From a virus: a stretch of 40,908 nucleotides of DNA. The first letter of the stretch is position 1. Every line of letters starts with the position of its first letter. Shown here piece after piece: positions 9,005 to 32,224 of the stretch. The notes under the pieces are model-generated. The model was not told the origin of the DNA, made no database searches, and saw only the letters and a program-made list of their open reading frames with translations. The translations under genes and the position numbers were made by a program. Location of the stretch: positions 1 to 40,908 of IMG/VR virus record IMGVR_UViG_3300030202_003533; one strand, 5' to 3'.

Positions 9005-9198
9005 ATAAGTTACAACTTACAAAAGGTGAACTAACAAAAATTATTCTTGAAGAAGTTAGAAATCTTCAGGAGCAGGCTGACCCACAAGAGCTAGCAGCAA
9101 AAGCTAAAAAAGAGATTGGTGAATATTTAAATGAAGCTTCGGCTGACCAAATTTTATCTCTTCAAGCTATGATAGCAGAGATGGACAGCTATGAGTAA
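9001..9198 (+). CDS. small helical protein, possible core/scaffold-associated
   Basis: 65 residues, acidic and helical, with an N-terminal amphipathic segment MNKLQLTKGELTKIILEEV. That type of opening (LTKxELxxIIxEEV) is found, to my knowledge, in several short proteins of marine T4-like phages. It contains ILEEV, which would fit the T4 prohead-protease rule (hydrophobic-x-Glu), so it could be a core protein carrying a capsid-targeting peptide; that is inference. The SD is AGGAG at 8990-8994. It overlaps the protease gene start by 8 bases, suggesting coupled expression. Confidence 0.7.
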   Translation: MNKLQLTKGELTKIILEEVRNLQEQADPQELAAKAKKEIGEYLNEASADQILSLQAMIAEMDSYE

Positions 9199-9781
9199 AC
9201 TAATATTAACAGAGTTCCTAGAGTTTAGAACAGACTCTGATCTTCTTACTGAAGCTGAAAGAAAAGCAGTCCAAGAAGGCGAAGAGATTTACCTAGCTGG
9301 TGTTATGCAGCGAGCAGGAGCTACTAATGGTAATGGTAGAGTCTACCCAAAACAAATTCTAGAAAGAGAAGTAGAGAATTACCAAAAGTTAGTTCGCGAA
9401 GGTAGAGCAGTCGGTGAGTTAGATCACCCCGATAGCTCCGTAGTTGAACTTAAAAATGCTTCACACTTAGTTACAGAGATCAAAATGGACGGTGACGATG
9501 TTGTGGGCAAGATCAGAATATTAGATACACCAGCAGGTCAAACAGCCATTGGTCTTTTAAAGGGTGGTGTCAAATTAGGCATCTCTTCAAGAGGCTTAGG
9601 TTCAACTCGCAACGAAGCTGGTAAAACAATCGTCCAAGAGGACTTTCAATTAGTCTGCTTTGATTTGGTATCAGAGCCTTCTACAACTGGAGCTTTCATG
9701 CTTAGAGAAGGTAAAGAACCAAATATTTTTACAAAAGCAGATAAAATTAATAGATTATTAAATGATTTGGTGAAAGAATGA
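9191..9781 (+). CDS. gp21: prohead core protease (gp21-like)
   Basis: 196 residues, close to T4 gp21 (212). The family motifs are clear: GRVYPKQILEREVENY (50-64), GELDHPDSSVVEL with the putative catalytic His79, and KLGISSRGLGS at about 129-138 with the catalytic Ser at 132 or 133. In T4-like phages gp21 sits in the prohead core and cleaves capsid, core and vertex proteins after hydrophobic-x-Glu before DNA packaging. It overlaps both neighbours (8 bases upstream, 4 bases downstream). Confidence 0.95.
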   Translation: MSKLILTEFLEFRTDSDLLTEAERKAVQEGEEIYLAGVMQRAGATNGNGRVYPKQILEREVENYQKLVREGRAVGELDHPDSSVVELKNASHLVTEIKMDGDDVVGKIRILDTPAGQTAIGLLKGGVKLGISSRGLGSTRNEAGKTIVQEDFQLVCFDLVSEPSTTGAFMLREGKEPNIFTKADKINRLLNDLVKE

Positions 9782-10185
9782 GTGCTAAACTAAAAAAAGT
9801 ATTAAAACCTCTTATTAAAGAGTGTATCAAAGAAATTATTTTTGAAGATGGTGTCCTGTCCTCTATTATTAGAGAAGCACAGGGCTCACCAACTAAACAA
9901 GTTGTTAATGAGGAAAAGGCTTTTACAAAATTTGTTAAAGAGCCCAGAAAAGAAAATAAAAAACTAAATGAAACCAGAAGTAAAATGAGAAAAGCTATAG
10001 CTGAAAAGATGGGCGACTTTGACCCCTTTGAAGGGACTAGCCCATTAACAAGCCAGCAAGCATCTGGCGGTGCATCACAAAATTCAATGTCTGGAGTTGA
10101 TCCTTCGGATAAGGGAGTTGATATCACAGATATTCCTGGCATGGGTAGATGGGGTGCTATCAATGAGAGGTTAACAGATGGCTAA
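9778..10185 (+). CDS. head-operon protein of unknown function, candidate protease substrate
   Basis: 135 residues. The N-terminus is amphipathic and basic (MSAKLKKVLKPLIKECIKEI), followed by SSIIREAQG at 28-36. IIRE/A matches the gp21 cleavage rule and resembles LLRE/A in the capsid protein here. The middle is charged. The C-terminal third is low-complexity (TSPLTSQQASGGASQNSMSGVDPSDKGVDITDI) and ends GMGRWGAINERLTDG. It could be an internal core protein processed during head maturation; that is inference from motif and position. Its end overlaps the bS21 gene by 8 bases. Confidence 0.75.
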   Translation: MSAKLKKVLKPLIKECIKEIIFEDGVLSSIIREAQGSPTKQVVNEEKAFTKFVKEPRKENKKLNETRSKMRKAIAEKMGDFDPFEGTSPLTSQQASGGASQNSMSGVDPSDKGVDITDIPGMGRWGAINERLTDG

Positions 10186-10420
10186 GAAAAACAAAGTTGT
10201 CAATGTAGAAGTAGTCAGTAGAGGCAATCTGCCCGGTGAAGTTTTAATTAAAAGATTCAGCCGCGCCGTAAAAAAGTCTGGTATCATTCAAGAGATGAGA
10301 TCGAGACGCTATTATGAGAAGCCCTCCGATATCAAAAGAAAAGAAAGAATTAGAAGAAAGAAACTAATTAAAAAGAACAACCAAGAAAACAACAAAGTTG
10401 TTAAAGGGAATAGGGATTAA
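10178..10420 (+). CDS. rpsU: phage-encoded ribosomal protein bS21 homologue
   Basis: 80 residues. The core LPGEVLIKRFSRAVKKSGII, then RSRRYYEKPSDIKRKERIRRKK, reproduces the bS21 pattern (xALRRFKRxxEKAGIxxExRxREYYEKPSxKRKRK), including the YYEKPS block and the basic C-terminal tail. bS21 binds the 30S platform near the anti-Shine-Dalgarno region and assists mRNA selection. Phage bS21 genes are known from aquatic phages. Here it lies between the prohead protease and decoration/scaffold genes and overlaps its upstream gene by 8 bases, so it is expected to be made with virion proteins. It has about ten more residues than many bacterial S21 proteins. Confidence 0.9.
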   Translation: MAKKNKVVNVEVVSRGNLPGEVLIKRFSRAVKKSGIIQEMRSRRYYEKPSDIKRKERIRRKKLIKKNNQENNKVVKGNRD

Positions 10421-10422
10421 AA

Positions 10423-10848
10423 ATGGCAGAATTTCAATTTGCAAAACCAGGACTTAACTCAGTCGGTCAGTATCAAATGAGTGGTATTCCATATGCTAGT
10501 TCTAGCATTGTGGTTTCCAACACAGCAGTTACGGAAATTGAGTTTCCAACAATTACTAAATTTGTTACCATAACCAACACCCACACAGGTGCTTCAAAGC
10601 CACTCAAAGTGGGATTTAGTTCTACCGGCATACTCAATGATAAAAATCACTTTGTTTTAGACAACGGTGAGTCTTATACCGGTGAGTTTAGAGTTAGTTC
10701 TGTTTATCTTGCCGGTTCCTCTGCTCCCACAACAGCTTCAGTTATCGCTGGCTTGACACAAATCGAAAGAGGAAACCTATTAACAAACTGGTCAGCCTCA
10801 GATGGATCTTCAATCTACGGTACAGACTTAGGCGGCGGACTAGGCTAA
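10423..10848 (+). CDS. probable head decoration or structural protein
   Basis: 141 residues, beta-rich, starting AEFQFAKPGLNSVGQYQMSG. It contains strand-like repeats such as SSIVVSNTAVTEIEFPTITKF, then VTITNTHTGASKPLKVGFSSTG, and ends in a Gly-rich tail (YGTDLGGGLG). The composition (Ser/Thr/Val/Gly, few charges) is typical of capsid decoration or fibre subunits. The next gene, a lectin-like protein, begins at the following base, suggesting the pair works together on the head surface. No named family is recognised. Confidence 0.75.
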   Translation: MAEFQFAKPGLNSVGQYQMSGIPYASSSIVVSNTAVTEIEFPTITKFVTITNTHTGASKPLKVGFSSTGILNDKNHFVLDNGESYTGEFRVSSVYLAGSSAPTTASVIAGLTQIERGNLLTNWSASDGSSIYGTDLGGGLG

Positions 10849-11697
10849 ATGAGAAGTGGGTTTGGTGGAAAAACCGCAAGTTCTATTAGTTCCACATCTA
10901 TGGGCAAACAAAACGTTGCCGATCGTGCTAAAGGTGGGGATAGTCTTATTCGTGCTGTAGCCGGATCCGACTTGGCATCTTGGTTAGATGCTGATGACAT
11001 CTCTGTTGCTGACGGTGCTAATGTAACAGCTTGGACAGCAAAAGAAGGCAATGGACCATCTCAAAATGCTAGCACCCCTCGCCCACCAGATTTTCTTCTT
11101 GATGCGATTAACGGTAGACCAGCAGTTAATTTCGCAGCCACTAATGAGTGTTTACAATGGGCAGCAGAGGGCTTAAGCGAATCGGATGTCCCAGCAGTTA
11201 CTGTTGCCTCAACTAGCCGTTCATCAGTTGCTGGTACTGATTCAGGTATAATTTTTGAGCTTGGAACTGCAAACTATCACACCGTCGCGGGTTTGATTAT
11301 GGCTTACTCCTCGAATGGAGGCGGTACTGACAGGCGAATGCTTATTGGTATTGGCGGTGCTGGAGACGAATCTTTCCGATTCTCAACCTCGGAAAGAACA
11401 CCAAATATCGATAATGTGATGGTTGGAGTCTACGATCGCTCTACATCGGATGACACACTAAATGGTTTTATTAATTCTGAGCCAATCACACCAGCGGCTT
11501 CTAATGACGAAGATAGAACTAATTCTTTTGATTTTGATGGACAAATATCTAATTTGGGAGCCCGAGCCAATGGTTCAGTTGGTTTAAATGGGTCAATTAG
11601 AGAATTTGTAGTTATAAAGCGTGCTTTAAGCGATGTAGAGTCTTTCCGATTAGCAAAGGCATTAATGTCTAATACTGGCTTGACAGCACTAATATAA
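10849..11697 (+). CDS. LamG/concanavalin-like structural protein
   Basis: 282 residues. After a Gly/Ser-rich start (MRSGFGGKTASSISSTSMGK) comes LASWLDADDISVADGANVTAW, then NGRPAVNFAATNECLQW. A run of beta strands follows, with VMVGVYDRSTSDDTLNGFIN and GSIREFVVIKRALSDVESFRLAKAL in shorter pieces. This layout, a jelly-roll with a final xIxEFVVxxRALSDxE helix, is typical of LamG/concanavalin-like domains in phage virion proteins. It probably decorates the capsid and may bind glycans. It directly abuts the previous gene, and a candidate late promoter follows it. The fold call is fairly good; the exact role is inference. Confidence 0.75.
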   Translation: MRSGFGGKTASSISSTSMGKQNVADRAKGGDSLIRAVAGSDLASWLDADDISVADGANVTAWTAKEGNGPSQNASTPRPPDFLLDAINGRPAVNFAATNECLQWAAEGLSESDVPAVTVASTSRSSVAGTDSGIIFELGTANYHTVAGLIMAYSSNGGGTDRRMLIGIGGAGDESFRFSTSERTPNIDNVMVGVYDRSTSDDTLNGFINSEPITPAASNDEDRTNSFDFDGQISNLGARANGSVGLNGSIREFVVIKRALSDVESFRLAKALMSNTGLTALI

Positions 11698-11783: not shown

Positions 11784-12983
11784 ATGTCATCTATGCTAGA
11801 ACAAGCAATTATCGAAGCCGAACAACTTAAGAAAGTCGCTTCCCGCAATGCCGAACAGGCTATTTTAGAGAGATATTCCCAAGAAATAAAAGAGGAAATG
11901 GAGAACCTAATTGAACAAGATTTAGGTTTAGATGCTGATGTTGGATTAGGATTAGGCATGGATACTGGAGCAGCAACTCCACAGGTAGATTTTGAAGGTG
12001 CTAAGGCAGATAATGATCAGGTTCCAGACCAATTAGAATATGCCGCTTTTGATGGTCTTACTATCGGTGAGACAAAATATCCAAAAGAAGGCGATTTAAT
12101 TGAGATCAATTTAGACTCACTATCAGAATATGAGTTAAACCCTGAAGCTGGTCCAACGACTCGTAATCTTTCAGAGTCAATTAATATTGATGATTCTTTA
12201 TTAGAGCAGTTTATTAATGAAGAGTTGGAAGAAATCCTATTGGATAAAGATAAAGATAAGAAAAAGAAGAAAGATGACGATGATGACGATGATGACAAGA
12301 CAGAAGCCCATTGTGGAACTGGTCGTCACGAGGAAGCAATGCCGGCAATGAAAATGCAAGTCGAGGAGTTAGAACTCGACGAAGAGAAACTAGAAGAGAT
12401 GATGAAAATTGATTTCAAATCTGTAAAAGTGGGCAACCCTTTTGGAACAAATCAAGAAAGAGATGAAATGAATCTCATCCTCGCAGACCTTCAAAAGCAA
12501 TGCGAAGAATTAAATATGAAGAATGAATCACTCAGTAATGATAATCAAAGCTTGATTAGTGAGAATACTGAGTATAAAAAGAACTTTGAGTCCGCTGAGG
12601 CAACATCTCATGACTTAAACAACAAATATGCATCATTACTTGAGAAAGTCAAAGAACTCAAAGGAGCCTTTGAAGAGTCTCAGTTAATGAATGCTAAATT
12701 GGTTTACACCAACAAAGTTTTATCCGATGAAAAACTAAATGTTCGTCAGAAAAATAAGATTGCCGAATCCATCGAAAAGACTGATAGTGTAAACGAAGCT
12801 AAGATTGTGTACGAAACTCTCGTAAACACAGTGGAGAGTACCTCTAAGAGAGGACCAGAATCGCTGAGTGAGGCAGTTACACGTCGCAAGCATCCCCTTT
12901 ACATTAAGGGGAATCAACAAGAGGCTAAACCCTCTGATAACTTTGCTAATCGTATGAAAAGATTAGCAGGGCTTGACTTGTAA
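11784..12983 (+). CDS. gp22: prohead core scaffold protein (gp22-like)
   Basis: 399 residues, longer than T4 gp22 (269). It is strongly acidic and helical, starting SSMLEQAIIEAEQLKKVASRN, with coiled coil at about 1-45 and 215-310. Between them are acidic linkers and, near residues 152-171, a run of lysines followed by eight aspartates. The C-terminus (HPLYIKGNQQEAKPSDNFAN, then RMKRLAGLDL) matches the usual capsid-binding end of gp22 proteins as I know them. It lies directly before gp23, as in T4. The scaffold fills the prohead and is destroyed by gp21. The SD is TAGGAG at 11771-11776. Confidence 0.85.
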   Translation: MSSMLEQAIIEAEQLKKVASRNAEQAILERYSQEIKEEMENLIEQDLGLDADVGLGLGMDTGAATPQVDFEGAKADNDQVPDQLEYAAFDGLTIGETKYPKEGDLIEINLDSLSEYELNPEAGPTTRNLSESINIDDSLLEQFINEELEEILLDKDKDKKKKKDDDDDDDDKTEAHCGTGRHEEAMPAMKMQVEELELDEEKLEEMMKIDFKSVKVGNPFGTNQERDEMNLILADLQKQCEELNMKNESLSNDNQSLISENTEYKKNFESAEATSHDLNNKYASLLEKVKELKGAFEESQLMNAKLVYTNKVLSDEKLNVRQKNKIAESIEKTDSVNEAKIVYETLVNTVESTSKRGPESLSEAVTRRKHPLYIKGNQQEAKPSDNFANRMKRLAGLDL

Positions 12984-13003
12984 TTAACAAAGGAGGATAA
13001 ACA

Positions 13004-14698
13004 ATGTCAACTATCGTAGAAAGTTTAACAAAAGACATCGTTAATCGTGACCTCCAAGCCGAAGGCGCTGCTCTTCTCAATAAATGGGAGAAGACTGGAC
13101 TTCTAGAAGGTCTCGATAATGATAGAACTAAGAACGGCATGGCTCGTCTCTTAGAGAACCAAGCAAAGGAGCTTCTCCGTGAAGCTTCATCCATGGCTGG
13201 TGGTGATGTAGAGGGCTTCGCAGCCGTTGCATTTCCAATCGTTCGCCGTGTATTCGGTGGTCTCATCGCTAATGAGCTAGTCTCAGTACAGCCAATGAGT
13301 CTACCATCAGGTCTAATCTTCTTCTTAGATTTTACCTTCACTGACACCAAGGCTGGCGTAACTGCCGGTGAGTCAGTTTACGGCGGTGGTCGTGTTGCTA
13401 GCCAAATCACTGGCGGTCTTAATGACATCACAGAAGAAAGTGGTGGTCCATACAACCTACAGACCGGCTATGCTTCACCAACTTCTAGCTTCGAAGCAGC
13501 ATTGACTGAAACACTAGCCACTACTCAGGTTAGTGCTCTTACTGATGCACAGAAGACTCTTCTTCGCTGGGATCCAGATCTCTTGGCTGAGACTACTGAC
13601 TTTGTTGAGCAGCACACATTTACTGTTCCAACAGATTTAAACTTGGACGAAGTTATTTCGCTTCAAGAGTTCGGCGAAGGTATCGCACTAGGTAATGCTG
13701 GTGTCGCATGCGACATCGTTCGTAGATTGACTTCAGTTGATGCTGCTGGTACAACAGCAACAATCACTCTCAAGAAGGCTACTACTATTGGTGCAGTTAA
13801 TGCAATCACAGGTACTTACAACCGTAAGGATCACTTTGAAGCTTCTGGAATCGGCGGCGTTGCCGGCGGTGCTATCTGGGGTCTTGAAGGTGCTGGTACC
13901 GGTGCTGACTTCAACGGTCGTACTGTTAATGATGATATCCCAGAGATCGACATCAAAGTTGACTCCATCGCTGTAACAGCAGTCACCAAGAAGCTCAAAG
14001 CTAAGTGGTCCCCTGAGCTAGCTCAAGACCTCAATGCTTACCACAACCTCGATGCAGAGGTTGAGCTTACTAGCATTCTCTCAGAGCAGATTGCTCTAGA
14101 GATTGATAATGAGATCTTACATGACCTTATCGAAGGCGCCACTGCCGGTACTAAGTACTGGAGCCGTCGTCCCGGTAAGTTTGTAGATCGCGACACAGGT
14201 GTCCAGGTCGGTGCAACAACTGCTGCTCCTGACTTCACAGGTACTGTTTCTGAGTGGTACGAGACATTAGCCGAGACTATCAATGATGTCTCAGCTAACA
14301 TCCACAGAAAGACACTTCGCGGTGGTGCTAACTTCGTAGTTTGCTCCCCAGAAGTTGCTAACCTCCTAGAGTTCACCGCTGGTTTCCGTGCAACGGTAAA
14401 TCACGAAGAGCTAAAGGGTGGTGAGATTGGTGCTGTTAAGACTGGTTCACTAAGCAAGAAGTTTGACGTATACGTCGATCCATACTTCCCACGCAATGTG
14501 ATTCTAGTTGGTCGTCGTGGCAATAGCTTCTTAGAAAGCGGCTACGTCTACTCACCTTATGTCCCACTACAGGTCACACCTACCATCTTCGGTGTTGAGG
14601 ATTTTGTACCCCGTAAGGGCGTCATGACCCGCTACGCCAAGAAAATGGTTCGTCCTGACATGTACGGCTTAGTTGTTTGCCAAGATCTAATTGGTTAA
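13004..14698 (+). CDS. gp23: major capsid protein (gp23-like)
   Basis: 564 residues, close to T4 gp23 (521). Conserved features include FPIVRRVFGGLIANELVSVQPMSLPSG (in overlapping parts at about 77-104), EIDIKVDSIAVTAVTKKLKAKWSPE, LDAEVELTSILSEQIALEIDNEI, and VGRRGNSFLESGYVYSPYVPL near the end. The N-terminal propeptide is expected to be removed by gp21; LLREA at 57-61 fits its hydrophobic-x-Glu rule and lies about where T4 is cut. The ribosome binding site AAAGGAGG is the strongest in the window, fitting the most abundant virion protein, and codon choice looks more biased than in neighbours. A terminator follows. Confidence 0.97.
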   Translation: MSTIVESLTKDIVNRDLQAEGAALLNKWEKTGLLEGLDNDRTKNGMARLLENQAKELLREASSMAGGDVEGFAAVAFPIVRRVFGGLIANELVSVQPMSLPSGLIFFLDFTFTDTKAGVTAGESVYGGGRVASQITGGLNDITEESGGPYNLQTGYASPTSSFEAALTETLATTQVSALTDAQKTLLRWDPDLLAETTDFVEQHTFTVPTDLNLDEVISLQEFGEGIALGNAGVACDIVRRLTSVDAAGTTATITLKKATTIGAVNAITGTYNRKDHFEASGIGGVAGGAIWGLEGAGTGADFNGRTVNDDIPEIDIKVDSIAVTAVTKKLKAKWSPELAQDLNAYHNLDAEVELTSILSEQIALEIDNEILHDLIEGATAGTKYWSRRPGKFVDRDTGVQVGATTAAPDFTGTVSEWYETLAETINDVSANIHRKTLRGGANFVVCSPEVANLLEFTAGFRATVNHEELKGGEIGAVKTGSLSKKFDVYVDPYFPRNVILVGRRGNSFLESGYVYSPYVPLQVTPTIFGVEDFVPRKGVMTRYAKKMVRPDMYGLVVCQDLIG

Positions 14699-14722
14699 TA
14701 ACTTAGTGTAGTTAAAATTAGG

Positions 14723-14760
14723 TTCCCCGTTGGGTTTTTAACTCAGCGGGGAATCTTCTT
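14723..14760 (+). terminator. intrinsic terminator after the capsid gene
   Basis: A long hairpin: TTCCCCGTTGGG pairs with CTCAGCGGGGAA (12 positions including two G-T pairs) around a TTTTTAA loop at 14723-14754, followed by the T-rich TCTTCTTATT. It lies 24 bases after the gp23 stop and just before a candidate late promoter, so it would cap capsid transcription. Confidence 0.75.
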
Positions 14761-15428: not shown

Positions 15429-15464
15429 AAGACCTCCCAGTGAAAACTGGGAGGTCTTCTTTTA
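15429..15464 (+). terminator. strong intrinsic terminator
   Basis: A perfect 12-bp stem (AAGACCTCCCAG with CTGGGAGGTCTT) and a TGAAAA loop at 15429-15458, followed by CTTTTAT. It ends the decoration unit and is followed 5 bases later by the candidate promoter of the neck genes. Confidence 0.88.
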
Positions 15465-18157: not shown

Positions 18158-21136
18158 ATGGCAGTTTCAGCGAAAAACTTTAAATTTATTTCACCGGGAA
18201 TCCGTATCGAAGAGATCGACCGCTCTCAGATTCCAGCAGATGAGCCAGCAATTGGTGCCTGCATTATCGGTAGGTCAAAAAGAGGACCAGCTTTTACCCC
18301 AACTGAGGTAAGAAGCTTTTCTGATTTTGTGTCTATATTTGGCGAACCAGTTGCCGGCGGCACTGGTGGAGACATATGGAGAGAAGGTAATTACACCTCT
18401 CCAATGTATGCTACTTATGCTGCACAATCATGGTTGAGAAACGGTGAAGCTCTAACATTTATTAGAACTCTAGGCGTTGAATCAGATAATAAAGCCACTG
18501 GCGGCGAAGCTGGTTGGAAAGTTGGTACTGCCACATTCGACACAGCTTATAATGCAGCCACCAATACCGGTGGAGCATATGCTCTTGTTGTAGCCCCATC
18601 AGGTGCTGTTGGAAACAACCACACAGCTTCTGTTGCCGCTGTTTGGTATTTAGAGCAAGGCTCAATGTTCTTAAGCGGAACAACACTTTCTGGAGATGGC
18701 GGCTTCACCGCAGGCACACCTGTTGCCTCATCCTCAGTGCTTCTAAAAACTGATGGTGCTAAATTTAAAGTTGGTTTTGAAACAAGCCAAGGACTTCCAA
18801 GTGGAACATTTGAATTTGATTTTAACAAGGGAAGCTCAACTTACGCAAGAAATGTATTTAACACAGACCCAACTTTATTAGGAAGACAAGGTGACTCAAA
18901 CGGCGAAGTACAATATTTCTTAGGTGAAACTTTTGAAAACACAATACCAGCCAGCAGCCATGGCTATTTTGCTGCCATAGTTGGCTTGGGAACTGGTACA
19001 CTTGGTTCACTAACTGATGTTGTACAACACGATGTCCAAAAAGCTGCCCTTGAGTCATCCACATATACCAAGTCTGGTTGGTTCTTAAGTCAAGATCTAT
19101 CATCAGACACTGCATCTTGGGATAGCTCAACTCCAGCCAATAACATTACTAATGGCAGGGTTGAAAAGCTATTTCGCTTTGTTGGATTAAATGCTGGTGA
19201 GTGGACACAACAAAACCTTAAGGTCTCAGTTTCTAATATTCGTGCCCCAGCAAACGAAGATGTGAATCCTTACGGGACATTCGATGTTGTTCTTAGAAAA
19301 TTAAGAGACTCTGATGACAATGTACAAGCTGTTGAAAGATTTAGCGGCTGTAATTTAAATCCAAATTCTGATGATTACATTCTTAACAAAATCGGCGACA
19401 AATTCAGTTCTTTCGACGAGAACACTAACCGTGTTATTGTAAAAGGCGAATACGAAAATAGATCAAAATATGTTCGTGTTGAATTGAATACAAAATTTGA
19501 AGCCGGTGGAATGGAAGGCTATTCGCCATTTGGTATTACAGGACCAACTAAATTTGTCGATACTACTTTTGATGCAAATCAAGTTGGAGAAGGTGGTGTT
19601 GTTGGTGGATTAGGTAATTTTGCAGGATCAAACACCTTCACATCTAACATCTTAAGTGGCACATGCGACATGGCAGGGTTTAGAATTGAATTCCCATCAT
19701 CGAATACCCGTCTAGACACAAGCGATTTAGAAGACTTTAGGGTAGCCCACTTTGGTACTCTACCAACACCAGACAAGAGCGACAATTTTAAAGCGGACAC
19801 TATTGACATGGTGAGAATTAAGCCAGCAAATGTTACTAACCAATATGATGCTGTTAGTGAAGAGCTTAAATATCAGTATGTTATATTCTTAGACAATGTT
19901 GTGATCAGTGGCTCGGACTTAAATGCCTCTACCGCTAACTTGGCAGCATCAGCAAGTGTGTTGGTATACGACACAGCCTCCAGAGGCGGCGGTTATTCAC
20001 TATCAACAACTGGCTCATACCCATCAAACTTTAATGCTGGTCCAAGTGCTGATTTTGGTAGCTACAAGGCAGTCTTAAATGCTGGAGCCGGCAATCTAAC
20101 CACCCTATTCTTTGGTGGTACTGATGGCTTTGACATTACAAAGTCTGATCCATTGGCTCAAAATGACATCGCCAGTTTAAGTATTAATGATAGATTCACT
20201 AGCTATGAAATGTTCACATATTACAGAGCGATTGAAACTGTTAAAAACCCAGAGCAGGTTTCTTATAATGTTCTTTCAGTACCTGGCTTAATTAATGATA
20301 GTTTAATTGATCAAATGGTTGCCAACACCGCAGAAAGAGCAGATGCATTAGCAGTATTTGATATTCCATTTGGATATATCCCAAGACATGAAAGACTTTA
20401 CTCCAGTGTTTCAACATTCAATTTAAATGTAGATTCAAATGGTGATCTAACACAGGCAATTAATGAAGTAAAGAGTAGAAAATATAACTCAAGCTATGCC
20501 GCGACTTACTACCCATGGGTCAAGATCCGCGATGGCATTAATTCTAAGGATGTTTGGGTTCCACCATCCATCGCCGCTCTAGGTGCCATGTCTTATACAG
20601 ACCGTGTACAAGCTCCATGGTTCGCTCCTGCCGGCTTTAACCGTGGTGGGCTATCCTCTGGTGTGTCTGGACTTCCAGTCGTCTCTACAGCCCTCAAGCT
20701 CTTTAAGGACGACAGAGACGATCTGTACGAGATTAATGTTAATCCAATTGCAACATTCCCAAATGAGGGTGTGGTCATTTTCGGTCAAAAAACCTTACAG
20801 GTTGAGCGATCAGCACTAGATAGAATTAATGTTCGTAGGCTTCTAGTATTCCTCAAAACAGGTCTCTCTAGAATCTCTAACGGTGTTCTATTTGAGCCAA
20901 ATGTACCAGACACTTGGAACAACTTCAAGAATCAGGCGATCCCATTCTTGAACGATGTTAAGACTCGTTTTGGTCTAACTGACTACAAGTTGGTTCTAGA
21001 TGAAACTACAACCACACCTGACTTAATCGATCAAAATATCTTGTATGCCAAGTTATTCATTAAGCCAGCAAGAGCTATTGAGTACATTGCTCTAGATTTC
21101 ATCATCACCAACACTGGGGCATCATTTGATGATTAA
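18158..21136 (+). CDS. gp18: tail sheath protein (gp18-like), enlarged
   Basis: 992 residues, against 659 in T4 gp18. The N-terminus FISPGIRIEEIDRSQIPADEP, then GACIIGRSKRGPAFTPTEVRSF, is the classical sheath opening. The C-terminal domain has VPPSIAALGAMSYTDRVQAPW, followed by FAPAGFNRGGL, INPI-type strands, INVRRLLVFLKTGLSR and LFIKPARAIEYIALDFII. Together these identify a contractile sheath. The extra length lies in the middle (about 130-700), a Ser/Thr/Gly-rich, beta-type region that is presumably a set of inserted outer domains. Contraction of the sheath drives the tube into the host envelope. Confidence 0.95.
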   Translation: MAVSAKNFKFISPGIRIEEIDRSQIPADEPAIGACIIGRSKRGPAFTPTEVRSFSDFVSIFGEPVAGGTGGDIWREGNYTSPMYATYAAQSWLRNGEALTFIRTLGVESDNKATGGEAGWKVGTATFDTAYNAATNTGGAYALVVAPSGAVGNNHTASVAAVWYLEQGSMFLSGTTLSGDGGFTAGTPVASSSVLLKTDGAKFKVGFETSQGLPSGTFEFDFNKGSSTYARNVFNTDPTLLGRQGDSNGEVQYFLGETFENTIPASSHGYFAAIVGLGTGTLGSLTDVVQHDVQKAALESSTYTKSGWFLSQDLSSDTASWDSSTPANNITNGRVEKLFRFVGLNAGEWTQQNLKVSVSNIRAPANEDVNPYGTFDVVLRKLRDSDDNVQAVERFSGCNLNPNSDDYILNKIGDKFSSFDENTNRVIVKGEYENRSKYVRVELNTKFEAGGMEGYSPFGITGPTKFVDTTFDANQVGEGGVVGGLGNFAGSNTFTSNILSGTCDMAGFRIEFPSSNTRLDTSDLEDFRVAHFGTLPTPDKSDNFKADTIDMVRIKPANVTNQYDAVSEELKYQYVIFLDNVVISGSDLNASTANLAASASVLVYDTASRGGGYSLSTTGSYPSNFNAGPSADFGSYKAVLNAGAGNLTTLFFGGTDGFDITKSDPLAQNDIASLSINDRFTSYEMFTYYRAIETVKNPEQVSYNVLSVPGLINDSLIDQMVANTAERADALAVFDIPFGYIPRHERLYSSVSTFNLNVDSNGDLTQAINEVKSRKYNSSYAATYYPWVKIRDGINSKDVWVPPSIAALGAMSYTDRVQAPWFAPAGFNRGGLSSGVSGLPVVSTALKLFKDDRDDLYEINVNPIATFPNEGVVIFGQKTLQVERSALDRINVRRLLVFLKTGLSRISNGVLFEPNVPDTWNNFKNQAIPFLNDVKTRFGLTDYKLVLDETTTTPDLIDQNILYAKLFIKPARAIEYIALDFIITNTGASFDD

Positions 21137-28924: not shown

Positions 28925-30223
28925 ATGTCTAAGACTCCTTTTGCAAACAAAAATTCTAATACAAAAGAATTGTATAAAAGCAGAGAGATATACGAGGAAT
29001 TTTATCCAACTGATATAGACCAGTTTGACTTGTGGAATAATTTACCTTTATATGGTAGAGTGGATAATGAGGGTACAACAGTTTTCCCGAGGGAATCAAA
29101 GCTCGTTTATATTACCCAGTCCAGCGATAAAAAACAGCTAGCAGTCTTAAACTTTGTTGCAGATGCTTTTCGAAAAATGAGAGAACACTATAAAACAATT
29201 TTTAGATTAAATACTGAGGCAGGTCCAACAAGATTTTTTTCAAGCACTCTAGAACCAACTAGAGCATGGGAAAGCCCTGTAATTGGATATAATGTTTACA
29301 TACAGTCAATATATGATGACTTTTACTCTAATGTTTTAGTAGATTTGGAACAAAGTGATAAAATTAAAAACTTTAAAGATTTCACAAATTTATTATTTGA
29401 GTATATAAGACAAAACGGAAAAGCCTTTACTAGAATGGCATATGGAGAATCTGGGAAATCAACTGTTTTAAACACTGGGTTGGCTATTGAAATATACCCT
29501 GGCGACTATGGGGATGACAAGTTATCCGCCTCTTTTGTCAATGATCCCAACTTCCCAATTTATCAAGAACTATGTAGAAAATACGGATTTAAAATTGATA
29601 GGAATATTCCGTGGAGGATTGTAGCAAATCTTCGGAGCAATAACTTGTCTCCTTTTATAAAAGAGAAGTTACAGAATAACTCCGACAACACGATTAAAAA
29701 TATATTTACAGAATTTTACATTTCATGTGATGGCAACGAATATTTTGAAGAATTTATAACTTACTTAAAAGGATTTTATGCGACTTTTTACCAAGCTAAT
29801 AAACAGTATAAACAAAGTGTGTTCAACTCTGATAAACTTTGTAATGGTATAAGTTACAAATTGGTTAATAGACAAAGCCCAAGTTCAGAAGAGACAACTT
29901 TGCCTTTACTAGAGAAATTAATTCTTTTTTACAAGTTTAGATTGGCAGAATTAAATTTAAAAGCAAGTACAAAAAGACAGTCGTTTCACTTAAAAAATGT
30001 TACTGCGATTGTTAAATCACTAAAAAATGAAGAACTGGCTACAAAAAAAGCTCTTGAATATATTAAATATAATCTAGGTACGGCTGCTTTCCGCGAGGTA
30101 CCACTCTCCCAAAATAACTTGACAAGATCTAACGATGGTGTTATGATGTCTGCACAGGATCAGTTCGATAAAAGAACTGGCGAAAACAGCAGGTATATAA
30201 CAGATGATCTTTCAGGTCCTTGA
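28925..30223 (+). CDS. virion-operon protein of unknown function
   Basis: 432 residues, alpha/beta, with a disordered lead (MSKTPFANKNSNTKELYKSR). A basic, Asn-rich middle includes FKIDRNIPWRIVANLRSNNL. A helical C-terminal half follows, with an end region LTRSNDGVMMSAQDQFDKRT and GENSRYITDDLSGP. No motif I can name. It continues the baseplate block, so a structural role is likely. It is the last late-type gene before the replication block, and its 3' end contains a sigma-70 promoter and overlaps the DNA polymerase start by 20 bases. Confidence 0.75.
   Translation: MSKTPFANKNSNTKELYKSREIYEEFYPTDIDQFDLWNNLPLYGRVDNEGTTVFPRESKLVYITQSSDKKQLAVLNFVADAFRKMREHYKTIFRLNTEAGPTRFFSSTLEPTRAWESPVIGYNVYIQSIYDDFYSNVLVDLEQSDKIKNFKDFTNLLFEYIRQNGKAFTRMAYGESGKSTVLNTGLAIEIYPGDYGDDKLSASFVNDPNFPIYQELCRKYGFKIDRNIPWRIVANLRSNNLSPFIKEKLQNNSDNTIKNIFTEFYISCDGNEYFEEFITYLKGFYATFYQANKQYKQSVFNSDKLCNGISYKLVNRQSPSSEETTLPLLEKLILFYKFRLAELNLKASTKRQSFHLKNVTAIVKSLKNEELATKKALEYIKYNLGTAAFREVPLSQNNLTRSNDGVMMSAQDQFDKRTGENSRYITDDLSGP
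30119..30147 (+). promoter_or_regulatory. sigma-70 promoter for the replication block, inside upstream gene
   Basis: TTGACA at 30119-30124, a 17-base spacer, then TATGAT at 30142-30147. It lies within the 3' end of the 28925 gene and 57 bases before the polymerase ATG. The match is 11 of 12 to consensus. It would let early RNA polymerase start the replication genes apart from the late virion operon. Confidence 0.7.
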
Positions 30224-31394
30224 TAACAAGATTGAGTGTGTTGGCTACTACAGTGCCGGCAAAATTTATAAAGAAGATGTTGGTCACAACTTTACTCAAA
30301 CTTGGGATAGTTCTCCAAACTTTATGTCTAAAGCTGTAGACTATGCTAAACTTTATGCGGGTGTGGATAGTATAGATGATGTGCCACTGCCTGACCACCT
30401 CCACACTGAATGGCGGTCCTCTACAAAACGGATGAAGGCATTTATTAATTCACTGAGAAAAGCAAAAGTTAGTTTAGATGATCACTGTTTTTATGACTTG
30501 GTACCAGATAAGTTCCTAACTGACTTCTATGAAAACAAAACACAGGTTACAGATTTTGTCTTTAAAAACTTTAGTAAGCCAGCCAACTATGATTTTCTTA
30601 AGGATGTTAATTTGCTATTAGCTAAGATCGCTGGTCAAAAACTTATCGTTGATAAGAGCAAGCTAAACCAGCGATTCATGAAGAAAACAGACTTTGTTGC
30701 GGCTCAAAAGTTCTTGAACAGCACTGACAAAATCAGCTATAATATATTTAAAAGCAAGACTGGTCGCCTTTCAACACAGAAAACTAGCTTTCCAGTCTTA
30801 GCTTTTGATAAAAGATTTCGGCAGATTTTGAAGCCACATAATCACTGGTTCTTAGAGCTAGACTTCAATGCGAACGAACTTCGTGTTTTACAAGCTTTAA
30901 ATGGTGTAGAACAGCCGAAAGAGGATATCCACGACTGGAACATCAAGAATATATTTGGAAGCGATACAGAGCGATCTGATGCGAAGAAGAGGGCATTTGC
31001 TTGGCTTTACAATCCAAACTCACAAGATACGGCAATGAGCAAGTTTTATGATAAGGAAAAAATCCTATCAACATATTACAGAGATGGTATCATCACAACA
31101 CCTTTTGATCGCAAGATTGCCAGTGATGACTTCCATGCTCTAAACTACTTGATTCAAAGCACAGCATCTGATGTTTGTTTGAAACAAACCCTCAAACTGG
31201 ATAAGCTTTTAGAGGGCAAGAAAAGCTACATCACAGCAGTGATCCATGATTCAGTTTTGATCGACTACGATGAGGAAGACAAAGATATCTTAAAAGAACT
31301 GGTTTCTACATATGGTAAAACTAGCTTTGGAGATTTTAAAGTTAATATTTCAGTTGGATTAAACTACGGAGAAATGAAAGAACTATGCAGGTAA
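30204..31394 (+). CDS. short family A DNA polymerase
   Basis: 396 residues, polymerase core only. Family A motifs are clear: TGRLS at 186-190; motif A LELDFNANELRVL with Asp220; motif B R257-x3-K261-x3-F265-x3-Y269-N270 (the O-helix pattern, with Asn for the usual Gly); a segment ALNYLIQSTASDV near 312-323; and motif C VIHDS at 346-350, where the usual HDE is HDS. No 3'-5' exonuclease domain (DEDD motifs) is visible in the first 130 residues, and the length is far below E. coli Pol I (928) or T7 (704). T4 itself uses family B gp43. Its neighbours are the tubulin-like gene, gp32 and UvsX, so it is likely the phage replicase or an accessory polymerase. Confidence 0.87.
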   Translation: MIFQVLDNKIECVGYYSAGKIYKEDVGHNFTQTWDSSPNFMSKAVDYAKLYAGVDSIDDVPLPDHLHTEWRSSTKRMKAFINSLRKAKVSLDDHCFYDLVPDKFLTDFYENKTQVTDFVFKNFSKPANYDFLKDVNLLLAKIAGQKLIVDKSKLNQRFMKKTDFVAAQKFLNSTDKISYNIFKSKTGRLSTQKTSFPVLAFDKRFRQILKPHNHWFLELDFNANELRVLQALNGVEQPKEDIHDWNIKNIFGSDTERSDAKKRAFAWLYNPNSQDTAMSKFYDKEKILSTYYRDGIITTPFDRKIASDDFHALNYLIQSTASDVCLKQTLKLDKLLEGKKSYITAVIHDSVLIDYDEEDKDILKELVSTYGKTSFGDFKVNISVGLNYGEMKELCR

Positions 31395-32224
31395 TTGGGA
31401 TTGGTACAGGAGGGTGTCAGGTTGCAACTGATCTGGCACAATATGGTGTTTATGATATCATTAATGTCGACACATCTTTTAAGGTTGAATTAGATGATGT
31501 GATAAACATTGAGCTTGAAAGGCAAGAAACTTTCAAAGAGTATGAGACAGAAACAAAGCTTGACATCCGCAGCGAAATAAAGTATAATAGTGTACATGTG
31601 TTTTTGTTCGGAGGAGGAAAAACCACCGGTTCAGTTCTTAGAATTTTAGAAAAAATTAAAGATAAAAAAATTACGATACACTATATCAAACCAGAAAAAA
31701 ACTTCTTATCGGCTAAACAAAAGTTAAGAGAACGAGCCATATGTGGTATACTACAAGAGATGGCTAGATCTGGAGTGTTCAATAGAATGTATCTTTACGA
31801 CACATCTAAAATCTTAGAAGGACAAGAGGTTGCTTTTCTCAAGAAGAAAGACCATGTTTCAAAAACAATAGCGGGAATGTTTCACACGATTAACTTTACA
31901 AAAAACACTGAAGACTTATTTTCAAATGTTGAGGATCCAATGGAAGTCAATAGAATTGCTACGATTGGTACGGTTAATCCAGAGGATGGAAAGGAGGTAT
32001 TGTATTTTCCTCTTGACAGCATCCGAGAAAAGTGTTACTATTTCGTTATGAGTAAATCAGCACTGGAGACACCCGGTGTTATAGAAAAAATAAATGACCA
32101 AATAAAAGAAGAAAATGAACAATCTTCTTTTAAGATTATAGAGTCAGACTGGTCAGATAATCATGTTTATATGGAAGCATTTACAAATGTTGTCCAGATA
32201 ACCCAAGAAAAAACGGAGGAATAA
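31385..32224 (+). CDS. FtsZ/tubulin-like GTPase-fold protein
   Basis: 279 residues that line up along their length with FtsZ. VIGIGTGGCQVATDL (3-17) matches the first nucleotide loop (VIGVGGGGxNAV), and INVDT (26-30) matches AVNTD. VHVFLFGGGKTTGS (70-83) matches VFxxAGMGGGTGTG. ITIHYIKPE (97-104) matches LTVAVVTKPF. LRERAICGILQEM then MYLYDTSKILE matches the SLIxIPNDKLL region. VSKTIAGMFHTIN with NTEDLF corresponds to helix H7 and the T7 loop, but NxDxxD is not preserved. The C-terminal part CYYFVMSKSALETPGVIEKI resembles the second FtsZ domain. The G-box (GGGKTTG) is altered. It may form filaments that position phage DNA, as PhuZ does in other phages, or have lost GTPase activity. It overlaps the polymerase gene by 10 bases. 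Confidence 0.68.
   Translation: MQVIGIGTGGCQVATDLAQYGVYDIINVDTSFKVELDDVINIELERQETFKEYETETKLDIRSEIKYNSVHVFLFGGGKTTGSVLRILEKIKDKKITIHYIKPEKNFLSAKQKLRERAICGILQEMARSGVFNRMYLYDTSKILEGQEVAFLKKKDHVSKTIAGMFHTINFTKNTEDLFSNVEDPMEVNRIATIGTVNPEDGKEVLYFPLDSIREKCYYFVMSKSALETPGVIEKINDQIKEENEQSSFKIIESDWSDNHVYMEAFTNVVQITQEKTEE
31560..31588 (+). promoter_or_regulatory. perfect sigma-70 consensus promoter inside the tubulin-like gene
   Basis: TTGACA (31560-31565), 17 bases, TATAAT (31583-31588): a full 12 of 12 match. It lies at codons 59-68 of the tubulin-like gene, on the sense strand. A transcript from here would cover the rest of that gene and continue into gp32. Coding constraint does not demand this sequence, so it is probably functional. 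Confidence 0.65.
32013..32041 (+). promoter_or_regulatory. sigma-70-like promoter upstream of gp32
   Basis: TTGACA (32013-32018), 17 bases, TACTAT (32036-32041), in the 3' part of the tubulin-like gene and about 184 bases before the gp32 ATG. It is a good match apart from two -10 positions. With the 31560 site it would give gp32 two internal promoters. Confidence 0.52.

Follow-up and report, generated by a model that had tools for sequence, protein, structure and literature searches.

The stretch of DNA analysed here (the window) is a linear, 40,908-base IMG/VR virus record, and within its head-gene block lies an ORF (10178–10420, + strand, 80 aa) that, by homology and modelled structure, is a genuine gene for ribosomal protein bS21. 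The position of this gene in the head-gene block is conserved over a large phage clade and is old and stable. It is moderately likely that the gene encodes a working phage bS21 that is inherited with the capsid cassette, made together with the head proteins, and swapped into host 30S subunits late.

An 80-residue bS21 with a YYEKPS block had been claimed from the sequence alone (the original prediction), and the ORF indeed contains RRYYEKPSD. Pfam PF01165 (Ribosomal_S21) matches residues 12–62 of 80 with 50.5 bits (E 1.7e-13; curated cut-off 27 bits), PHROG 21469 'ribosomal protein S21' matches with an E value of 8e-10, and a PDB sequence search returned 36 distinct sequences at E <= 0.01, topped by bS21 chains with E values down to 6.4e-9. 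Such matches lie far beyond chance. An AlphaFold model built from 23 aligned phage sequences reached a pLDDT of 85.8, and seven of its nine Foldseek matches were bS21 or mitochondrial/chloroplast S21 chains, with bS21 from P. urativorans and from E. coli ranking first (probability 1.00, TM by target 0.70), at E values of only 0.02–0.04 for this very small chain. A structure outside bS21 would have spoken against the original prediction; the best PDB matches of the model are bS21 chains. Across the 23 phage sequences, F27, K48, and S50 never vary, and V31, R43, Y46, P49, and R54 hardly do. Values of dN/dS against near relatives were 0.09–0.31 (seven comparisons with a value and one of eight undefined), a rough estimate given that most dS values exceed 1, and place the gene under purifying selection.

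The window encodes T4-type TerL, portal, gp32, and gp23 proteins and a UvsX-like recombinase, and no tRNA genes were found in its 40,908 bases. The genes for TerL (3681) and portal (5265) are followed by g7228, g8049, g8626, g9001, and then, on the + strand from here to gp23, a gp21-like prohead protease (9191–9781; PF03420 and PHROG), and g9778 (9778–10185; 135 aa), which is the companion gene of bS21 and a probable prohead-core protein. At the bS21 start codon, the two reading frames overlap by 8 nt, and a 141-aa ORF without a Pfam or PHROG family (10423–10848) starts 2 nt past bS21. Next come a 282-aa probable virion protein (10849–11697; PHROG 10356, weakly LamG-like), a scaffold-like protein in the gp22 position (11784–12983), assigned by position and composition with no significant family, and the major capsid protein gp23 (13004–14698; PF07068 and PHROG). 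The predicted overlap with a head gene thus exists, but the head-gene label is presumptive, g9778 having no Pfam or PHROG match. Likewise, the gene had been placed between protease and decoration genes; the protease does lie upstream, with g9778 intervening, but a decoration role does not follow for the products of 10423 (no family) and 10849 (weak LamG-like or virion structural match).

Candidate + strand terminators between the protease and gp23 genes have 5 pairs only, whereas a consensus scan placed a terminator-like hairpin of 17 pairs directly after gp23 (14720–14756, + strand), a possible end of the bS21-carrying transcript. With hairpins weak before gp23 and strong after it, a single transcript shared by bS21 and gp23 is plausible. 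Farther downstream, a 13-pair hairpin with a T-rich stretch after it (15429–15458) forms another strong terminator-like site. Elsewhere in the window, the tail sheath (18158–21136) is 992 aa long, roughly double the PHROG 23 profile, which matches along the whole ORF. A family A DNA polymerase match falls mainly in residues 310–390 of a 396-aa ORF (30204–31394) that seems short for a complete polymerase. The 279-aa protein at 31385–32224 has no Pfam or PHROG match and contains GIGTGGCQ and FGGGKTTGS, which we take to resemble tubulin/FtsZ nucleotide-binding motifs.

The placement of bS21 was compared among viral loci in two scans that have some contigs in common. When the best 80 of 129 viral loci from a bS21 scan were analysed, genes of the capsid cassette could be recognised in 55, in every case on the same strand as bS21. 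Where a protease is present, it lies ahead of bS21 (49/49 loci), and where the major capsid protein (MCP) gene is present, it lies after bS21 (34/34 loci); in 49 of 52 loci, the closest upstream gene recognised is g9778. A second scan used the protease alone, thereby avoiding selection on bS21. Among its best 80 loci, 56 have bS21, always on the same strand, downstream of the protease, and before the MCP or the contig end; four have protease and MCP but no bS21; and 20 are undecided, mostly because of contig ends. Within this undecided group, L169 shows neither gene, L223 has a scaffold but no bS21, and L171 contains a diverged bS21-like ORF. Thus, bS21 is present in 23 of the 27 loci showing both protease and MCP, a rate valid for this neighbourhood only, as the 80 loci are those closest to the protease profile. 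Because 4/27 of these loci and the cultured Flavobacterium phage immuto do without bS21, such a head block can dispense with the gene, and the same absences count against the favoured explanation. Capsid genes are missing from 25 bS21 loci, 23 of which hold at least one homologue of six proteins encoded beside bS21 in Pelagibacter phage HTVC008M; such homologues occur in 0/55 capsid-context loci.

Tight spacing between g9778 and bS21 is the rule, and overlap is less common beyond the near relatives of the window. With each distinct bS21 end counted once, an overlap of 4 or 8 nt between the g9778 stop and the bS21 start occurs in 22/47 loci of the bS21-selected set, whereas bS21 starts 0–20 nt past this stop in 21/47 and farther away in 4/47; the corresponding figures in the protease-selected set are 10/54, 37/54, and 7/54. 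Members of the g9778 family share an N-terminal LKPLIKECIKE-type helix and an invariant FEG, with a conserved GVDIS close to the C-terminus; the g9778 structure model, at pLDDT 60.5, was not good enough to be searched by fold. Among the protease-selected loci, g9778 accompanies bS21 in 56/56 loci and was detected in 0/4 loci without bS21, a figure that may reflect sensitivity because some of those four have ORFs with g9778-like N-termini. In bS21-less relatives, a small Lys/Arg-rich protein with a KLTPxxLKRIIAEEK-like start follows the g9778-like ORF in the bS21 slot (L205, 3854–4048; L223, 6815–7096; L225, 7135–7383; L227, 7501–7797). At the undecided locus L171 (7048–7356), the diverged bS21-like ORF that has lost the YYEKPS block directly follows g9778.

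The joint occurrence of the two genes (together in 56/56 loci, missed together in 4/4) could be explained if bS21 had been turned to a non-ribosomal job, such as RNA binding or partnership with g9778 in head assembly, and an extraribosomal role of bS21 is reported for another system (PMC12054373). This explanation is quite improbable: the bS21 core residues are retained across the 23 phage sequences, Microcystis phage Mel-JY01 and LR756508 have a bS21 or bS21-like ORF without a g9778 match, and the joint absence may come from few lineages and the limit of sensitivity, g9778-like N-termini being visible there.

In a bS21 tree of 107 proteins and 64 columns, capsid, elsewhere, and cellular labels required six changes, compared to at least 39 in 300 shuffles. 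One clade (local support 0.70) contains 46 of the 52 capsid-context bS21s, including that of the window; those outside it are L009, L035, L036, L074, Mel-JY01, and LR756508. Most capsid-operon bS21s therefore stand apart from replication-cluster bS21s (HTVC008M and PA5oct) and from the cellular bS21s sampled, which came from a phage-biased scan and do not represent hosts evenly. A comparison over 28 non-redundant loci found 13 of 25 splits common to the bS21 tree and a tree of TerL, portal, and protease; 70-column capsid controls had 11, 12, and 12 splits in common with that tree, and 1000 label permutations never gave more than 3. We conclude that bS21 has been passed down without leaving its place, at shallow and middle depth if not beyond. 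An apparent incongruence between the bS21 and capsid trees (AU test p 0.004) was dropped as uninformative, because the core tree was also rejected for three 70-column control subsets (p 0.008–0.023). Pairwise bS21 distances are uncorrelated with those of TerL (−0.06) or portal (near zero), which counts against the favoured explanation of a bS21 inherited with the capsid cassette. Since the split comparison shows co-inheritance, the near-zero correlation is read as saturation of a short protein; yet 60 random portal columns still correlate with TerL (mean 0.56, minimum 0.27), and bS21 is therefore noisier or more mobile than this control.

The GenBank records closest in gp23 and TerL are LR756508, immuto, and Mel-JY01, all below 60% identity. 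In Mel-JY01 (PP395634), an RpsU is annotated at the corresponding position, the one-strand order being protease, a gene without known function, RpsU, more genes, a scaffold-like gene, and a capsid protein gene. In contrast to the window, the Mel-JY01 RpsU is distant in sequence (E 1e-6) and is followed by a 388-aa gene, and no g9778 match lies upstream; the literature search found no paper on this phage. Immuto (NC_055915) shares the head-gene order, but its cassette lacks bS21. In LR756508, a bS21-like ORF lies just ahead of the scaffold, with no g9778 match. The bS21 genes of HTVC008M, Mosig, PA5oct, and Vibrio phage 2.275.O adjoin genes for CobS/AAA ATPase, Hsp20, clamp, IF-3, or nucleotide metabolism. 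HTVC008M likewise encodes a bS21, reported in part of PMC6375957 to enter E. coli 70S ribosomes, but this gene lies beside CobS, Hsp20, and replication genes and its product belongs to another part of the bS21 tree.

A capsid-cluster bS21 has been described before. Passages of Chen et al. (2022; PMC9723584) place bS21 of Bacteroidetes jumbo phages near TerL, portal, prohead protease, and MCP, flanked by genes without known function, report a companion gene (bS21_CN) that co-occurs with it, and count a prohead protease nearby in 310 of 900 published bS21 phages. The window bS21 is likewise near TerL, portal, protease, and MCP. However, bS21 is on the reverse strand in 47 Bacteroidetes phages, whereas that of the window is on the head-gene strand and overlaps or closely follows g9778. 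With the same strand in 55/55 capsid-context loci, the window bS21 falls outside the Bacteroidetes group and belongs only to the wider kind.

Location among head genes also raises the question of whether bS21 is itself a head component. The motif [LI]xE[AGSV], presumably the cleavage pattern from T4 gp21 work, occurs in gp23 (LLRE60-A), the protease (LLTE21-A), g9001 (LNE45-A), g9778 (IIRE33-A), and four times in the scaffold. E21 is invariant in 11 proteases and E33 in 24 g9778 sequences. As g9778 has such a site with an invariant glutamate and bS21 has none, g9778, unlike bS21, has the appearance of a processed core protein. The head-processing passages of a T4 review (PMC9958956) describe a targeting sequence and the removal of N-terminal peptides, and the consensus is absent from them. 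Packaging of bS21 in the virion like T4 internal proteins, with action at infection onset, was raised as a possibility by Chen et al. in the text of PMC9723584, and would fit both the location of the gene among prohead protease, probable core, and scaffold genes and the small basic protein that follows the g9778-like ORF in L205, L223, L225, and L227. It is nonetheless quite unlikely: in addition to lacking the cleavage site, the bS21 alignment shows no N-terminal targeting-like segment, and the PA5oct bS21 entry, from outside the capsid block, is without the ESI-MS/MS note borne by several neighbours. A more elaborate version, still less probable, holds that capsid-operon bS21 is an old phage-specific lineage tied to g9778, which would help to load it into the head, so that a ribosome part would be injected with the DNA and host ribosomes re-tuned before phage gene expression; if this were true, late-made copies would serve virions and not the current cell.

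The original prediction had further proposed that phage bS21 shifts 30S initiation to late phage mRNA, linked to Shine–Dalgarno (SD) strength. The strong SD claimed ahead of gp23 was found (AAAGGAGG, 12989–12996, + strand) and, at −11.6 kcal/mol, is the strongest of the genes tested, which speaks for such a shift; additionally, bS21 adjoins the anti-SD, and its loss in F. johnsoniae alters SD-dependent initiation according to passages of PMC9976891. Across the window, however, median SD pairing energies were alike for 28 structural genes (−6.35) and 12 replication or other downstream genes (−5.95; Mann–Whitney p 0.81), a comparison that included some possibly wrong TTG starts (3085, 26162, 32989, and 35155); both classes pair more strongly than random positions (−2.7). 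The proposed comparison of late and early genes thus gave no class effect, gp23 being one strong SD. Moreover, the F. johnsoniae ribosomes that favour strong SDs are those lacking bS21 (same passages). A specific shift to late mRNAs by way of stronger SDs is therefore unlikely. The SD of bS21 itself, GAGAGG within g9778 (10165–10170, + strand), is ordinary at −6.5 kcal/mol; Bacteroidota rpsU SDs below −13 kcal/mol are given in part of PMC9976891.

Regarding timing, a T4-type late promoter (TATAAATA, one mismatch allowed) had 66 matches in the window against 70.4 expected, which is no excess, and a sigma-70 promoter scan of the window was near chance. According to PMC9723584, Bacteroidetes phages transcribe their capsid-cluster bS21 along with the structural genes, and late co-expression of bS21 with head proteins would be the natural inference here.

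The original prediction had also looked to a tree against host bS21 for the host; none was named, as all cellular bS21s found are distant. A bS21 scan of genome contigs gave 43 cellular-type loci, and in no case did homologues of the head genes in the window lie next to them. The phage bS21 profile matched 332 of 398 Pseudomonadota genomes at E <= 0.001, the best at 48 bits, with no close relative among them; other phyla were represented by eight genomes. The SD use of the phage is weak evidence that the host is not one of the Bacteroidia.

What the analysis established for bS21 is its homology and fold, its fixed position, its co-inheritance with the capsid genes, and purifying selection on it. 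Late exchange into host 30S subunits is favoured because bS21 is loosely bound and exchangeable on ribosomes, the kind of protein favoured among virus-encoded ribosomal proteins (passages of PMC6375957), because the HTVC008M protein enters 70S ribosomes, and because Bacteroidetes-phage bS21 is transcribed with structural genes. Under this mechanism, late translation of the head-gene mRNA would yield bS21 in large amounts, in part through coupling to g9778. The protein would then exchange into host 30S subunits, replace or replenish loosely bound host bS21, and may keep or bias initiation toward phage mRNA during virion production; selectivity for phage mRNA is possible. Counting against this mechanism, E. 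coli ribosomes that received HTVC008M bS21 were left about 5% active (same passages), so that a benefit from phage bS21 is putative.

Capsid-gene placement, late expression, a companion gene, and the virion idea for phage bS21 are already published in the text of PMC9723584. Added here are the same-strand, tightly spaced g9778 arrangement, the protease-selected prevalence, the match in cultured Mel-JY01, and the separation of capsid-type from replication-type phage bS21. No paper on these additions was found in a search of mainly open-access literature, and no passage with bS21 terms was found in PMC6102473. The occurrence of a head-gene bS21 across a large clade, together with the cultured Mel-JY01, makes the role of phage bS21 testable, and comparison with replication-cluster bS21 (HTVC008M and PA5oct) could separate late from early roles.
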